A stretch of DNA of 64,000 nucleotides from Colwellia sp. M166 (lineage in GTDB: Bacteria; Pseudomonadota; Gammaproteobacteria; Enterobacterales; Alteromonadaceae). The notes under the pieces were generated by a model. That model did no database searches, was not told the origin of the DNA, and worked only from the letters and a program-made list of their open reading frames with translations. Location: the NCBI RefSeq assembly GCF_024585285.1, contig NZ_CP040755.1, positions 1,178,001 to 1,242,000 of the forward strand, given 5' to 3'. Below, one piece after another: positions 44,272 through 53,007 of this stretch. The translations under genes were made by a program, and so were the position numbers. The stretch's first letter is position 1. Each line of letters opens with the position of its first letter.

Positions 44272-45252
44272 TTAAACGCTATTCAAACATATTTTAGCAT
44301 TCGCTAGGCCGTGGGTTCTTTTTAGACCTACATGTTCACTAAATTCACATAAGTGCTCTGCTGTACCTACCGCGCCGGTAAAAATACCTTCAAAGTTAGT
44401 GGTCAACTTTAACCAACCTTTATCACTGATCTGTAGTCTTACCAGTATCTTAGTTACCTTAGGATTAATAGCGCCACGCTTATCATCTCTGAGTATGCGG
44501 CCGGTTTCATCCACAAGGGTGAAGTAATCTTGTAAGTTGAATCGAATACCTGTGGTTTTGCTTTTATGTTCATTTCCGCTAAAAGACAGTAACACGGCTG
44601 GTTGTCTGCCTTTTATTGCTGCTTTAATACGTAATTGGATACTGGTGAAGTCGGACTGCTCCGGTGTCGATGCAATACCCGCACGGACGGGGTTTAAGTC
44701 AACATAAGCCATGCACGACAGCAGTGCGCCCTCATCCAATAAGGCTTGTGATTTAAAGCGTCCCTCCCAAAAATGTCCTGTACATTTATCTTCTCGGTTG
44801 GCTTGACGGGCGATAGGCTCATTTAACGAGCGCATGAACCAGCTGATATCGATTAACCGTTGTTTATAGATGTTCGCGGTTTCTTCAACTATTGCCAGTT
44901 GAAACTTATCGAGAGGATGTTTACTTGTGTATTGCTGAGTCAGCAATGTGCCTTTAAATAAACGATGCCAACGCCTTAATACTTCTTCTGTTGTCCAACT
45001 TTTCACTTGCTCGCTATCTACATGTAATACCAAGTGTAAATGGTTATGCATAACAGCATGGGCACAAATATCGATAGCAAAGGCTTGAGATAATTGAAAT
45101 ATACGTTTTTCTATCCAACTGCGCGTGTGCGCATAACTCACACCCGTTTCTTTATCTACACCACATAAAAATGCCTTTCGTACCGTGCGGCTACAAATAT
45201 GATAATAAGGCGTATCGAGTAAACTAATTTGTTGTGAACGGGGCTTAGGCAT
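44272..45252 (-). CDS. RAYT-type Y1 HUH transposase
   Basis: 326 aa from the ATG at 45252; a GTG 9 bases upstream is less likely. PYYHICSRTVRKAFLCG opens the Y1_Tnp domain and the HUH metal motif appears in HAVMHNHLHLVLHV (about residue 68). The helix IDISWFMRSLNEPIARQANR carries a candidate region for the catalytic Tyr (TANIYKQRL), followed by GHFWEGRFKSQALLDE, the signature of REP-associated tyrosine transposases. Such proteins are usually single-copy and linked to REP sequences. It lies next to a short direct-repeat tract (45318-45430). Confidence 0.85.
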   Translation of the reverse strand: MPKPRSQQISLLDTPYYHICSRTVRKAFLCGVDKETGVSYAHTRSWIEKRIFQLSQAFAIDICAHAVMHNHLHLVLHVDSEQVKSWTTEEVLRRWHRLFKGTLLTQQYTSKHPLDKFQLAIVEETANIYKQRLIDISWFMRSLNEPIARQANREDKCTGHFWEGRFKSQALLDEGALLSCMAYVDLNPVRAGIASTPEQSDFTSIQLRIKAAIKGRQPAVLLSFSGNEHKSKTTGIRFNLQDYFTLVDETGRILRDDKRGAINPKVTKILVRLQISDKGWLKLTTNFEGIFTGAVGTAEHLCEFSEHVGLKRTHGLANAKICLNSV

Positions 45253-45261
45253 GACAATCAC

Positions 45262-48830: not shown

Positions 48831-49400
48831 TCAGGTCCAAACCATCGGGTGTAATTTTGCATTTTCTTTATTCATGTTCTTCATAAATTCTGTATAACCT
48901 TGGAACTCTGAAAAATCATTTAAAGTAAAACTGTTCTTTTTCTTACTTAACTTGTGTTCAATAAATGATAATAGTGTGGATTCATATAAGAAACAGAATT
49001 GGTCCATCATAAGCTCACGATACGAAATTAATGCCGAGGCTTTAAAATATGTTTTTAGGCTATGAGCCAACTCTTCATTCTTACCAATGAGACAGGAGGA
49101 AAATATAACTAATTTCCCATGGTTTTTTTCAGGTAACGGTTTTAAATTATCCCCATCAAAACAACTTTTATTCGTTAAATGAAAGCCATCATATTCACCA
49201 TGACCTGAGAATATTATAATATCTTCTTTTATTTTCCTTGATAGAAAGTATTCTAAATCCTGTAAAGAGTGCACTCTTTCATAATTAAAATCCCAACCAG
49301 CTGATTGGCAAAATGGCTTCCAAAAATCAGCTGCATTTCTTGTTACAGTATCTTTGTGGTTTTCATTTAAAACAGTGTCAAAAACTCGTACTCCAAACAT
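48831..49400 (-). CDS. Caspase-like His/Cys dyad protein
   Basis: 189 aa from the ATG at 49400, chosen for its AAGGA site 6 bases away; an ATG 6 bases upstream is too close to it. IIIFSGHGEYDGF (His67) and KLVIFSSCLIGKNEELA (Cys103) are the typical catalytic histidine and cysteine strands of caspase-like C14/CHAT peptidases, with S-G-H-G and S-S-C motifs. No signal peptide, no sensor or repeat domain. It is divergent from the WYL regulator and may share its operator. Activity and substrate are not evident. The neighbourhood is unusual: an IS3 remnant and repeat copies flank the cluster. Confidence 0.7.
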   Translation of the reverse strand: MFGVRVFDTVLNENHKDTVTRNAADFWKPFCQSAGWDFNYERVHSLQDLEYFLSRKIKEDIIIFSGHGEYDGFHLTNKSCFDGDNLKPLPEKNHGKLVIFSSCLIGKNEELAHSLKTYFKASALISYRELMMDQFCFLYESTLLSFIEHKLSKKKNSFTLNDFSEFQGYTEFMKNMNKENAKLHPMVWT

Positions 49401-49513
49401 AGACATTCCTTAATGCGGTTTAATAAAAACAGGCAGTTTAATTAAAATATTAAAATTTAATTAAGTTAAAACAAGACTATACCTTACTACCATGGTTTTT
49501 GTATTTAATAACA

Positions 49514-49542
49514 ACTAGTGCGACACTTATTGTCGCATTAGT
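49514..49542 (+). promoter_or_regulatory. Putative WYL-regulator operator 1
   Basis: TGCGACACTTATTGTCGCA (49519-49537) is a perfect 7+5+7 inverted repeat. The symmetry extends to ACTA..TAGT (11 of 12 arm positions). It lies between the divergent caspase-like and WYL genes, 52 bases before the WYL TTG start. A close copy precedes the FtsZ-like gene. Confidence 0.75.
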
Positions 49543-49589
49543 ATGATAGCCTCTAATATAATTGATTAATCATACTAGAGGCTCAGGCT

Positions 49590-50609
49590 TTGTTAGCATT
49601 TCAGCGACGATTAGATTTACTTGATCATATTCCACGCTCCCCTAATAAAATCTCTACACGGCAACTACTTGATTTACTTGAGTCTTACGGCCATGAAAAG
49701 CTAGTTATTAGAAAAATACAGCGTGACCTAGAAGCGATTGAATCTTTAGGTATATTTGGGCTTGAAGTAGATAAGCGCTCAAAACCTTATGGCTGGTCAA
49801 TCAACCTAAACTGGAAAAAACTTAATATTTCTTTAATGGATGCTAATTCTGCGTTGGCATTTTCAACGTTAAAAGAAGTGGCGGGCACTTTACTGCCAGA
49901 GTCGACCTTAGATGATCTTTCTGCATATTTTCAAAAAGCAGACATTATCATTAAAAATGAAAAATCTCCCTTGATCTCTCACTGGAAAAACTCAGTTGCT
50001 TTAATTAATAGTAATAATCTGGTGTCTTTACCGTTACCTGATGAGGAAGCATTATCTATCATCAAGCAAGCAATTTACTTCAAGAAACAAATATCAGCAG
50101 ATTTAAAACGTTACTTATTGGCTAATAAAAATCCTATCTGGAAACGCTATCAGCACATAAACCCATTAGGCTTAATTCAACGAGAAAATGTTGTAACCTT
50201 GATATGTAGCATAGGAAGCTTTCATCAAAAAATTTACAAATTCCCCATCGCTTTTATTAAAAATGTTGAGATAGATGATGTTGAGGTCAGCGTTCCAGAG
50301 CAGTTTAATTTCGAACAAATAAAAAACTCATATTTCAGCTCTAACCTTAGACATGAAAAAATATCACTCGTTCTGTTAGCTCGTAAAGACAGTTACTTTG
50401 TTATGAGTAATGGTAAGTTCAGTGATAATCAAACAACGATTGAAACTGAAAATTCGGAACTAGTAAAAATTAGTGCAACTGTTGAAGATAATCCAAAACT
50501 ACGGGCTTTTTTACGTGGTCTGGGCAGCTCGATAGAAGTGCTAGAACCTAACGTTTTAAGAACATATTTTAAAGCACTAGCGCAAGAGTTACTCACTAAG
50601 TATCAATAA
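49590..50609 (+). CDS. WYL-domain transcriptional regulator
   Basis: 339 aa from a TTG (AGAGG site 8 bases upstream). N-terminal winged helix-turn-helix: FQRRLDLLDHIPRSPNKIST, RQLLDLLES and KLVIRKIQRDLEAIESLGIFGLE. A middle segment is followed by a C-terminal WYL-type domain with its WCX extension. The usual W-Y-L triad is not strictly kept: KRYQHINPLGLIQRENVVTLIC occupies the expected place. WYL proteins are ligand-sensing repressors common in defence and stress loci. It is convergent with the FtsZ-like gene, with 24 bases between stops. Confidence 0.85.
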   Translation: MLAFQRRLDLLDHIPRSPNKISTRQLLDLLESYGHEKLVIRKIQRDLEAIESLGIFGLEVDKRSKPYGWSINLNWKKLNISLMDANSALAFSTLKEVAGTLLPESTLDDLSAYFQKADIIIKNEKSPLISHWKNSVALINSNNLVSLPLPDEEALSIIKQAIYFKKQISADLKRYLLANKNPIWKRYQHINPLGLIQRENVVTLICSIGSFHQKIYKFPIAFIKNVEIDDVEVSVPEQFNFEQIKNSYFSSNLRHEKISLVLLARKDSYFVMSNGKFSDNQTTIETENSELVKISATVEDNPKLRAFLRGLGSSIEVLEPNVLRTYFKALAQELLTKYQ

Positions 50610-50633
50610 ATTTTGCATTAGAAATACACTAGA

Positions 50634-51809
50634 TCACACCTTTACTTGGGCTAAATCGTTTAATCGTTGAGCTTCTAATAGCTTTCTCGTTATTGCTGGG
50701 ATATCAGTATAATCAGCCTCAGCTGAAGCTACCTGTTCATTACTTTCAATTGAGCTACTTTCATGACGAATAAAAGATAAATCATCATCTAAATATGAAA
50801 CTTTCTTGGTTTGTTCTTTGTTACTTACTTGCTTATCCGCACAGCTTATTCCTGATGCTATCAATAAGATCTCAAGGGCTGAATCTAAATTGGGATCTAA
50901 GGTTACACCAACAACAATAAGGGCTGATTCATTGGCTAATTTAGAACGAATTTGTTTAGGTATACCGTCGTATGTCGATAATTGTATCTCTTCTCGACAA
51001 ACGATCTGAATAATAATGCCTTTTGCGGTGTCAATATTGGCAATAGATACCAGTGGATTATTAAGCGCTTGCTCTAAAGCTTCTAGGTATTGGTCTTCGC
51101 TTTCAGCTTTACCGACGCCAAGTATCGACTCCCCTTCATATGATAATATTCTTGAAAAATCATTTTTATCAACATTTATGAAACCTGTTTGAGTAAACAT
51201 TTGAACCAAGGCTGAAACTAAATTTTTTAATACGTCATTACTTTGCTTGAAAGCAGAAAATAGCCCGACACTATCACAAAGCCCTTTAAGCAGTAAATCA
51301 TTGGATAGTGTAATAAAGGCTTGTGCTGGCTCCTTAATATCACCTAATCCTTGTAACGCGTAATCCATACGCATTTTACCTTCACTTTCAAATGGTAAGG
51401 TCACAATTGCTATACAACTTATGCCTAATTCACGAGCTACTTTCGCCACCAAGGGGCTAGCGCCTGTGCCTGTTCCACCACCAAAACCGGCGGTAATAAC
51501 AACTACATCACTACCTTGAAGCGCATTTTCTATGGCTTCCTCACTTTCTTGTGCGGCTTTCAATCCAACAGCAGGGTCTGCACCAGCTCCATAGCCATTG
51601 GTTAAGTTTTCACCTATCAACACTTTATTTTCAACATCGATGAAGTTCAGCGTTGCTAAATCTGTATTAACGGCAAGTAAATTAACACTATGACCTAGAT
51701 TGCTTTCATGTAACATATTAACGGTATTACAACCGCAACCTCCAATACCAACGACAGTAATAAGTATTTCTGCTCGTGTTTGCAAAAGTTCTTCCATTAT
51801 TTTTCTCAT
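50634..51809 (-). CDS. Second, divergent FtsZ-family GTPase
   Basis: 391 aa. Tubulin/FtsZ GTPase core: VVGIGGCGCNTVNM (residues 19-32), AVNTDLATL (46-54), GFGGGTGTGASP (109-119, signature), and the catalytic T7 loop NVDKND (212-217) with both Asp kept, so GTP hydrolysis and polymerisation look possible. C-terminal domain KGIIIQIVCREE and ALIVVGVTLDPNLD. A short linker ends in DIPAITRK (369-376), like the FtsA/ZipA-binding tail of FtsZ (DIPAFLRK), plus 15 extra residues. It is unlike the housekeeping FtsZ in sequence and lies outside the dcw cluster. Start alternatives: 51809 or 51797. Confidence 0.85.
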   Translation of the reverse strand: MRKIMEELLQTRAEILITVVGIGGCGCNTVNMLHESNLGHSVNLLAVNTDLATLNFIDVENKVLIGENLTNGYGAGADPAVGLKAAQESEEAIENALQGSDVVVITAGFGGGTGTGASPLVAKVARELGISCIAIVTLPFESEGKMRMDYALQGLGDIKEPAQAFITLSNDLLLKGLCDSVGLFSAFKQSNDVLKNLVSALVQMFTQTGFINVDKNDFSRILSYEGESILGVGKAESEDQYLEALEQALNNPLVSIANIDTAKGIIIQIVCREEIQLSTYDGIPKQIRSKLANESALIVVGVTLDPNLDSALEILLIASGISCADKQVSNKEQTKKVSYLDDDLSFIRHESSSIESNEQVASAEADYTDIPAITRKLLEAQRLNDLAQVKV

Positions 51810-51841
51810 TGATTAGCTTTGAAATTATTATAAATTACAGC

Positions 51842-51860
51842 TGCGTCATTAATTGTCGCA
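51842..51860 (-). promoter_or_regulatory. Putative WYL-regulator operator 2
   Basis: TGCGTCATTAATTGTCGCA, the same length and arm layout as operator 1 (one arm base differs). It lies 33 bases upstream of the FtsZ-like start. This suggests the WYL protein controls both genes. Confidence 0.72.
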
Positions 51861-51891
51861 AACAAGTTGTGAATGGCGATTTTGTAGTCTC

Positions 51892-52145
51892 ATACCAATT
51901 CAACTAAGTTTGTTCCCACTGAGTGAAATTTAAAAGCTTTAGAGGCACAGGTTCACAGTTCTAGACTGAACCTAAGTACGTCCCTGTAGGTAAAGCATTG
52001 ATTGAAGGTAATGGTTATTCTCGACAACTGCTCCTGCGTTGTTCTAATGATTCACATCCCTGTGAGAACCTTATCGAAATCAATAACGCGGCCTGTAAGC
52101 CTTTTAAAATCAACCTTCGGGAGCAAAACTTAATAGACTTGGTAT
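51892..52145 (+). repeat. ATACCAA element copy E
   Basis: About 254 bp. Left end ATACCAATTCAACTAAGTTT, right end CTTAATAGACTTGGTAT. The internal frame is interrupted by a stop (after GSQF). The element's right end touches the end of the split unknown gene, whose stop begins at the element boundary, and its left end lies 31 bases from operator 2. Confidence 0.85.
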
Positions 52146-52389
52146 CAGTTGAAACAAAAAACTAGGCTATCATCAATATCAAAAATTATAGAATCAGGCA
52201 TATTTTCAACTGAAATGCTTTTTATAAAGGATTCTTTATCTTTAATTGGTAAAAATTGCTCGTCTTTAGTGATTTGATTAAATTTTACTGCGGTTAGTTT
52301 TGCTCCATCTGTACTGCTTGCATTAAATGCCAGAGTAAGCGCTTTTAAGTTAATAGCATCTATGTCGCAAACAATGAATGGATTTTTTC
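52145..52389 (-). pseudogene. C-terminal part of the same gene in the -1 frame
   Basis: In the -1 frame the reading is KNPFIVCDIDAINLKALTLAF, then NASSTDGAKLTAVKFNQITKDEQ and, at the end, DIDDSLVFCFN, with no ATG start of its own. It is open for about 80 codons right up to repeat copy E, at whose edge the TGA stop lies (52145-52147). Either the A6 run carries a mutation or sequencing error, or there is programmed frameshifting; the element may have cut off the original end. Confidence 0.55.
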
Positions 52390-53007
52390 TATCGCTGATA
52401 GCCTTTCTTCTGCCGTGGCATCAAGAAACAAGGTTATAGCCATGGGTTCACAAGCTAAGGCTAAGGCCCGTTCGTCAAAAGTTATAGTATCGAGAAGATA
52501 GCGCACTAGCATGCCGTCGAGTTTTATTGCCGCGGCTCTAGCGTGTGCACAGCGCATTAACCCGTCACTTTCATAGAACAGCTCATCTTCTTCTAAAATG
52601 TCTTCATAACATTTATCTGCAATAGGTCTTTCAGAGTGAATAGTAATGGCTAGAATATTATATTTTGTACCGATGGGCATTAGGTAAGGTAGCAGCTGAT
52701 AGTGCTTTTTTAGCCATTGGTAGAATGATATAAACTTACCTGACTGGGTATAAACTTTATCTTTAAAGTTAAAGATGGCTACTTGACCATCACTAGTACT
52801 GGCCATAAAAACAGCATGGTCGTTATCTTCTGTTGAACTTTCATTCCATACTACAACTGGTTGTTTTTTTGTATGTTTTGAAATGGATTTCCAAGCACAT
52901 TCAGAAAGTATTCTCACTAAGGTAATACACTCATCAATGAAGTATGTCTCGTAGTCATTGGCATTAAGTAAGTCATAATTTAATTCTTTCAATTTAGCTG
53001 TGATCAT
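52360..53007 (-). CDS. Unknown protein, probably frameshifted
   Basis: The readable frame gives 215 aa from an ATG with an AAGGA site 6 bases away, ending HSLFAT. I recognise no family; it is acidic, with no signal peptide or membrane segment, and has two Cys-containing C-terminal helices. At an A6 run (52383-52388) a -1 shift opens a further 79 codons without a stop (see next entry), so the ancestral product was probably about 287 aa. It lies upstream of the FtsZ-like gene on the same strand, separated from it by repeat copy E. Its promoter region shows no copy of the TGTCGCA operator. Confidence 0.55.
   Translation of the reverse strand: MITAKLKELNYDLLNANDYETYFIDECITLVRILSECAWKSISKHTKKQPVVVWNESSTEDNDHAVFMASTSDGQVAIFNFKDKVYTQSGKFISFYQWLKKHYQLLPYLMPIGTKYNILAITIHSERPIADKCYEDILEEDELFYESDGLMRCAHARAAAIKLDGMLVRYLLDTITFDERALALACEPMAITLFLDATAEERLSAIEKIHSLFAT

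Follow-up and report, generated by a model that had tools for sequence, protein, structure and literature searches.

In the genome of Colwellia sp. M166, a 64,000-nucleotide stretch (the window; contig NZ_CP040755.1, positions 1,178,001 to 1,242,000) encodes a WYL-domain regulator and, next to it, a second FtsZ, here called FtsZ2. It is proposed, with a probability of about 0.5 and on the basis of sequence comparison, that these two genes form a regulon in which a damage-responsive switch resembling DriD of Caulobacter makes FtsZ2 on demand and so modulates the Z ring. The parts of this proposal differ in strength. Control of FtsZ2 by the WYL protein is very likely, DNA damage is the probable signal by analogy with DriD, activation is slightly favored as the mode of control, and a delay of division is suggested with somewhat less than even confidence. 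The comparisons show a recurrent pair under purifying selection, a site that is present at both genes and missing where the regulator is missing, and a DriD-like sequence of both regulator and site. Binding, activation rather than repression, a single-stranded DNA (ssDNA) signal and an effect on the Z ring are what we infer.

The WYL Regulator and FtsZ2 Recur as a Pair

The open reading frames (ORFs) of the window are arranged as in a preliminary description of this DNA: a caspase-like gene is divergent from the WYL gene, and ftsZ2 is convergent with it, with 24 bp between the two. The housekeeping FtsZ is encoded elsewhere in the same genome (G000:C1:3008418-3009572). In the set of 60 relatives, four genomes (G000, G001, G030, and G059) encode a second FtsZ, and these four are also the ones with a strong WYL relative (>100 bits). 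Scanning named genomes with a WYL alignment gave 70 WYL loci, some with flanks cut by contig ends; these loci (L) and the genomes (G) overlap, e.g., L038 = G030 and L048 = G059, and the sets are not independent. FtsZ2 adjoins WYL in 26 of the 70 loci, convergently in nine (seven Alteromonas, Colwellia hornerae and the Alteromonadaceae XY-R5) and on the same strand in 17 (Oceanimonas, Oceanisphaera, Zobellella and two other metagenome-assembled genomes). The pair is thus recurrent in Colwellia, Alteromonas, Oceanimonas, Oceanisphaera, and Zobellella, where the genes are convergent, on the same strand or ∼14 kb apart.

In a set of 295 family genomes, using cut-offs of E ≤ 1e-73 for FtsZ2 and E ≤ 1e-50 for a close WYL (the latter of our own choice), FtsZ2 was identified in 23 genomes, a close WYL in 13 and both in 11 (Fisher p = 3e-12, not corrected for relatedness). 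The two genomes with WYL only are G292, whose contig stops ∼1 kb past the gene, and G180, whose WYL is a pseudogene with five stops. In G149 and G215, a more distant WYL lies immediately upstream of FtsZ2 on the same strand. The WYL–FtsZ2 pair is under purifying selection, as the ratio of non-synonymous to synonymous substitution rates (dN/dS) was 0.05–0.14 in 8 of 12 WYL and FtsZ2 pairs; dS was saturated in the other four, and the usable dS values were mostly near or above 1.

An Inverted Repeat Is Shared by Both Promoters

The perfect repeat TGCGACA-N5-TGTCGCA that had been noticed in front of the WYL gene, and its near-duplicate before FtsZ2, were recovered with 0 and 1 mismatch. They are the only two sites in the window at ≤2 mismatches, which is above chance, as two such sites were reached in 0 of 100 dinucleotide shuffles. 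The distance from the end of the perfect repeat to the WYL start is 52 bp; the other repeat is positioned 32 bp ahead of the FtsZ2 start. In the whole 4.84-Mb genome only one further place matches at ≤1 mismatch; it lies within a 324-aa ORF, read as a sugar kinase without a family search, and was taken as chance. At ≤2 mismatches the genome holds 11 places versus 6 for a reversed-pattern control. In 14 related genomes there are 22 places at ≤1 mismatch versus 10 for the control, so that not all of these are real. A scan of viral contigs for the operator gave at least 120 stretches, too many for a 14-base pattern, and was not used.

Across the family set, which comprises 24 FtsZ2 genes, the site accompanies the regulator. 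Where a close WYL is present, the FtsZ2 gene carries the site upstream at 0–3 mismatches (11 of 11), as do the 11 paired WYL promoters, and the best upstream match in the 11 FtsZ2 genes without WYL has 4–7 mismatches. Among 3000 shuffled pieces (345 bp) from these loci, ≤2 mismatches were found in none and 3 mismatches in 0.6%. In G149 and G215, a palindromic variant, TGCGTCA-N5-TGACGCA, lies between WYL and FtsZ2. WYL promoters on genome contigs hold the site at 0–3 mismatches in 26 of 27 cases, the sole miss being Thalassotalea L036. It is also present at ≤3 mismatches in six of 13 other WYL promoters, which assigns the site to a broader WYL subfamily. WYL and FtsZ2 are ∼14 kb apart in G217 (also G061), each with a 1-mismatch site, and this preservation at both separated genes is the strongest evidence that FtsZ2, and not just the regulator's own gene, would be a target of the regulator.

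The Regulator Resembles DriD

The WYL protein has a Pfam WCX match and a PADLOC WYL match (PADLOC was applied to four window proteins only). When a profile of the WYL protein was compared with the PDB, DriD was matched at E ∼1e-13, PafC at 1.5e-4 and BrxR at 0.09. A predicted model (predicted local distance difference test score, pLDDT, 80; predicted template modeling score, pTM, 0.48) retrieved DriD at ranks 1–5 in Foldseek. In this model a winged helix-turn-helix (wHTH, residues 1–71), helices (75–135), WYL strands (166–232), and WCX (257–338) could be delimited by our own reading, which is the DriD-type order of wHTH, three-helix bundle, WYL and WCX. The window repeat likewise has the GAC-N7-GTC layout of the DriD consensus ATACGAC-N7-GTCGTAT (PMC12340889). 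Of all solved structures, DriD comes nearest to the WYL protein and matches it better than BrxR/CapW.

Promoter Geometry

The sites of DriD cover a poor -35 and keep a constant distance to the -10 (PMC12340889). The geometry was compared in 29 WYL promoters (selected from those that bear the site, Aeromonas included) and 13 FtsZ2 promoters. The hexamer TAxxx[T/A] occurs 9 nt past the site in 29/29 WYL and 10/13 FtsZ2 promoters, and the FtsZ2 promoters fit the DriD-type arrangement at this gap, as the WYL promoters do, although 17 of the latter also fit a conventional promoter. For the FtsZ2 promoters, gap 9 is a clear maximum with a mean TATAAT match of 4.15/6, and a conventional promoter (-35 and -10 both ≥4; gaps 9 and 14; spacers 15–19) could be fitted in 0/13; the FtsZ2 promoters thus look activator-dependent. 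The window FtsZ2 promoter has a perfect TATAAT at this position. The window WYL promoter is ambiguous, with TAGCCT at 9 nt (3/6) and TCTAAT at 14 nt (5/6), the latter with TTGTCG within the site as a possible -35. In 3 of the 29 WYL promoters a conventional promoter with a spacer of 15 nt can be fitted at gap 9. In the printed Caulobacter promoters of didA and CCNA_01149, the hexamers 9 nt past the site, CAAGGT and CAATCT, match at 2/6 each and were taken as -10 by position; bapE was not placed in this way.

FtsZ2 Retains the Residues of a Competent GTPase

FtsZ2 matches Pfam Tubulin and FtsZ_C, scores below the ftsZ equivalog cut-off (286.4 versus 295.2 bits) and is ∼37% identical to the host's own FtsZ. 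In a tree of 73 sequences, 43 FtsZ2 and 30 housekeeping FtsZ proteins were split by one branch with a support of 100/99, with long-branch warnings within FtsZ2. N207, D209 and D212 of the T7 loop and the GGGTG core are kept in 43/43 FtsZ2 sequences, and among the 120 listed wider relatives (of 182 found) NxDxxD is present in 120 and a GGGTG-type loop in 119. FtsZ2 may be the decoy that had been suggested beforehand, but its residues are those of a competent GTPase. In the docking tail, Ile, Pro and Arg are conserved at ≥90%, and a stricter tail motif is found in 36/43. The linker has 18–47 residues in 31 of these 36, versus ≥52 in 29/30 housekeeping copies. Position 21 is Gly in 30/30 housekeeping FtsZ proteins and Cys in 43/43 FtsZ2, and also Cys in all 120 listed wider relatives. 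Eukaryotic tubulins likewise have Cys at the corresponding position.

A phage origin of FtsZ2 was discarded, as FtsZ-like proteins in 25 phage-collection records were all <60% identical, with no near relative. Alteromonas profundi encodes a third FtsZ-like protein of 565 aa that is 24% identical to FtsZ2 (L157 1471-3168).

Proposed Mechanism and Alternatives

In the proposed sequence of events, a homodimeric DriD-like WYL regulator would bind TGCGACA-N5-TGTCGCA at its own promoter and at that of FtsZ2, and its WYL domain would sense ssDNA or another damage signal, by analogy with DriD. In the FtsZ2 promoter the site occupies the position of the missing -35, and the bound regulator would recruit RNA polymerase; its action on its own promoter may be activation or repression. 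The FtsZ2 level would then rise, and the presumably GTPase-competent protein, keeping its FtsA/ZipA-docking tail, might join or compete with the Z ring via the kept interfaces and tail, by which division would be delayed or remodeled. Read as an SOS-independent DNA-damage checkpoint of Gammaproteobacteria, in which an induced FtsZ paralogue with a tubulin-like Cys in the nucleotide loop enters and slows the Z ring, the system remains a tentative idea.

Several observations weigh against this proposal. A single-sequence search of the PDB with the WYL protein gave no matches, which is why a profile was used; the profile match to DriD is restricted to the WYL–WCX half, the Foldseek TM-scores are ∼0.3, and CapW follows at a short distance in VIA Z (11.7 versus 11.1). 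The WYL promoters of G149 and G215 are themselves without the site, as is that of the close WYL in Thalassotalea (G292 = L036; 6–7 mismatches). In the WYL promoters the mean TATAAT match is equal at gaps 9 and 14 (3.79 each), and 17/29 also fit a conventional promoter that has TTGTC(G/A) within the site and, after a 16-nt spacer, its -10 at gap 14. Bound protein could block such a promoter, and many WYL promoters could thus be normal promoters blocked by the site. Relatedness among the genomes inflates all counts, 11 FtsZ2 genes occur without a close or distant WYL regulator, and several copies carry in-frame stops, i.e., some of the genes are broken. In 5/5 Aeromonas genomes searched, the regulator and the site are accompanied by a single FtsZ, and in two of these five an additional site, followed by a -10 at gap 9, precedes an MscS-type gene, so that the scope of the regulator would be wider than division.

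A serious rival is that the WYL protein is a BrxR/CapW-style repressor of FtsZ2 and of itself that is released by ssDNA or another ligand, since it yields the same output, FtsZ2 on under stress. It is nevertheless judged the less probable mode, though one with an appreciable chance of being right: at the FtsZ2 promoters no conventional promoter that could be blocked was fitted, so an activator is expected, and both profile and Foldseek place the activators DriD and PafBC above BrxR/CapW. FtsZ2 itself might be a conditional spare that sustains division when the main FtsZ is blocked, e.g., by an FtsZ inhibitor or a phage protein. Its kept GTPase, polymerization and tail-docking motifs would suit this role, and SulA-family matches (E ≤ 0.001) occur less often where FtsZ2 is present (2/23 genomes versus 90/272, p = 0.017, not corrected for relatedness); as an argument, the absence of SulA was set aside as weak and confounded by relatedness. 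However, the mostly shorter linker, the diverged tail end and the invariant Cys21 suggest an altered function, and the closest regulatory precedent, DriD of Caulobacter, is an activator that drives a division inhibitor (PMC4211646). A spare FtsZ is accordingly considered unlikely.

It had also been suggested that the caspase-like protease, WYL and FtsZ2 respond as one regulon, and the divergence of the caspase-like gene from WYL across the perfect repeat speaks for such a stress or defense system. However, the caspase-like protein was identified in G000 only among the 60 relatives and in 1/295 genomes of the order, which is Colwellia sp. M166 itself (E ≤ 1e-10; this set overlaps the 60 relatives), and its gene stands beside 0/70 WYL loci, some of which have cut flanks. 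It was therefore rejected as a member, and a three-gene system is highly improbable. What stands of the earlier regulon is WYL and FtsZ2 with their shared site, to which the preferred reading as a damage-responsive switch applies.

Organization of the Locus and Neighboring Genes

The features of the window are listed in Table 1.

Table 1. Coordinates of the proposed regulon and its neighbors within the window.
Feature	Position	Strand	Basis or remark
WYL regulator, 339 aa, DriD-like (wHTH, helix bundle, WYL, WCX)	49590-50609	+	Pfam, PADLOC, profile, model, Foldseek
FtsZ2, second FtsZ, 391 aa	50634-51809	-	Pfam Tubulin and FtsZ_C; own clade
Putative regulator site, WYL promoter, TGCGACA-N5-TGTCGCA	49519-49537	+	0 mismatches; TGCGACACTTATTGTCGCA
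Putative regulator site, FtsZ2 promoter	51842-51860	-	1 mismatch; TGCGTCATTAATTGTCGCA; - strand reading TGCGACAATTAATGACGCA
Candidate WYL -10 hexamers TAGCCT / TCTAAT	49547-49557	+	ambiguous
FtsZ2 -10 hexamer TATAAT	51827-51832	-	9 nt past site; no -35 at 15-19 nt
Caspase-like His/Cys protein, 191 aa	48831-49406	-	neighbor, judged outside module
ORF of 215 aa, without known family	52360-53007	-	judged outside module

The caspase-like label of the preliminary description is plausible from sequence. The family has 84 relatives at E ≤ 0.001, and H68 (SGHG) and C104 (SSC) are invariant in 18/18 aligned relatives, which gives the conserved His and Cys of CHAT/caspase-like peptidases. No Pfam family was found above cut-off for the protein, and a Peptidase_C25 match below cut-off was present in 2/4 relatives scanned. 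By source names, this stand-alone family of ∼190 aa occurs in Photobacterium, Vibrio, Shewanella, Rheinheimera and others; a plasmid search for the protein gave none. Toward the caspase-like gene, the hexamer at 9 nt from the site is ATTAAA (3/6), which also counts against its membership. The 215-aa ORF was rejected as a module member because no relative was found among the other neighborhoods compared.

Transposase-like proteins of one cluster are encoded near the module both in the window (44272-45261) and in L021 (9715-10080; G001), consistent with mobile surroundings. Copies with in-frame stops, read as decaying, are FtsZ2 of G001 (L021 8822-9496), WYL of G030 (L022 10368-11087) and G180 (L309), and one of two FtsZ2 genes of G321 (L330 6598-7719). 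In Alteromonas, DUF3307 and SatD-like proteins are encoded near the pair in 3/4 loci compared (L040 4006-5599, L042 3858-5523, L043 8405-9981); Pfam was run on L040 only, where the SatD match was below cut-off.

Aeromonas accounts for 28 of the 70 WYL loci, all without an adjacent FtsZ2, many of them ending early at contig ends. In two Aeromonas species, the MscS-type channel genes with an upstream site (L129 1501-2406 and L117 around 1501; Pfam on L129 only) may be a second target for regulators of the WYL family.

Of the 11 FtsZ2 genes without WYL, six neighborhoods were fetched, and in five of these FtsZ2 is divergent from a HicB-like protein (L326 5563-5985, L327 5705-6142, L328 7918-8343, L330 5716-6147, L331 7690-8145; Pfam on four). 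These loci adjoin genes read as biotin synthesis, and their intergenic region contains repeated AACCC units and a conserved TATAAT. This suggests that the second FtsZ tends toward pairing with some regulator, and a different one may have taken over where WYL is missing.

Comparison With Known Systems

The nearest known system is DriD-DidA of Caulobacter, in which a WYL activator responds to ssDNA independently of SOS and makes a division inhibitor. The systems share the domain order, the best profile and Foldseek match, the GAC-N7-GTC site, its position over the -35 region at the FtsZ2 promoters, and the link to division. They differ in that the output here is an FtsZ paralogue and not DidA, that the hosts are marine gammaproteobacteria, that signal and activation are predicted by analogy, and that WYL's own promoter may be normal. 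The BrxR/CapW repressors of defense islands also combine a wHTH, WYL and C-terminal domain with an inverted repeat in their own promoter, but they match more weakly. Besides, no recurring defense genes were apparent beside WYL in 25 neighborhoods clustered by similarity, which were not scanned with a defense library; of the BrxR homologs, 48% co-locate with known defense systems and about half do not (PMC9122601). Of the two signals offered in the preliminary description, infection is left without support, because the WYL protein matches DriD over BrxR/CapW and no recurring defense genes were apparent in the 25 neighborhoods, and DNA damage is favored because regulator and site are DriD-like.

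FtsZ2 resembles FtsZ in its GTPase motif, T7 loop, docking tail and degree of identity, and differs in its separate clade, Cys21, mostly shorter linker and score below the equivalog cut-off. Haloarchaea reportedly control a second FtsZ by a ribbon-helix-helix regulator (CdrS-ftsZ2), which likewise gives a second FtsZ a dedicated regulator, in another domain of life and from another regulator family. The diverged families FtsZl1 and FtsZl2, of which FtsZl1 lies near VWA-domain and OmpA-like genes, are described by Makarova and Koonin (2010); going by that description, FtsZ2 may be distinct from them, as it is 37% identical to FtsZ, matches both Pfam domains and has no apparent VWA-domain or OmpA-like neighbors in the neighborhoods compared. 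DriD-type WYL regulators and FtsZ are thus known kinds of parts, and no description of their combination was found in the literature searched (open PMC papers only).

Known damage checkpoints act via small inhibitors such as SulA, SidA, and DidA. If the proposal is true, production of a second FtsZ under its own regulator would differ from these as a checkpoint output, DriD-type control would extend beyond Caulobacter, and the pair would allow the effect of a near-copy of FtsZ on the Z ring to be addressed directly.

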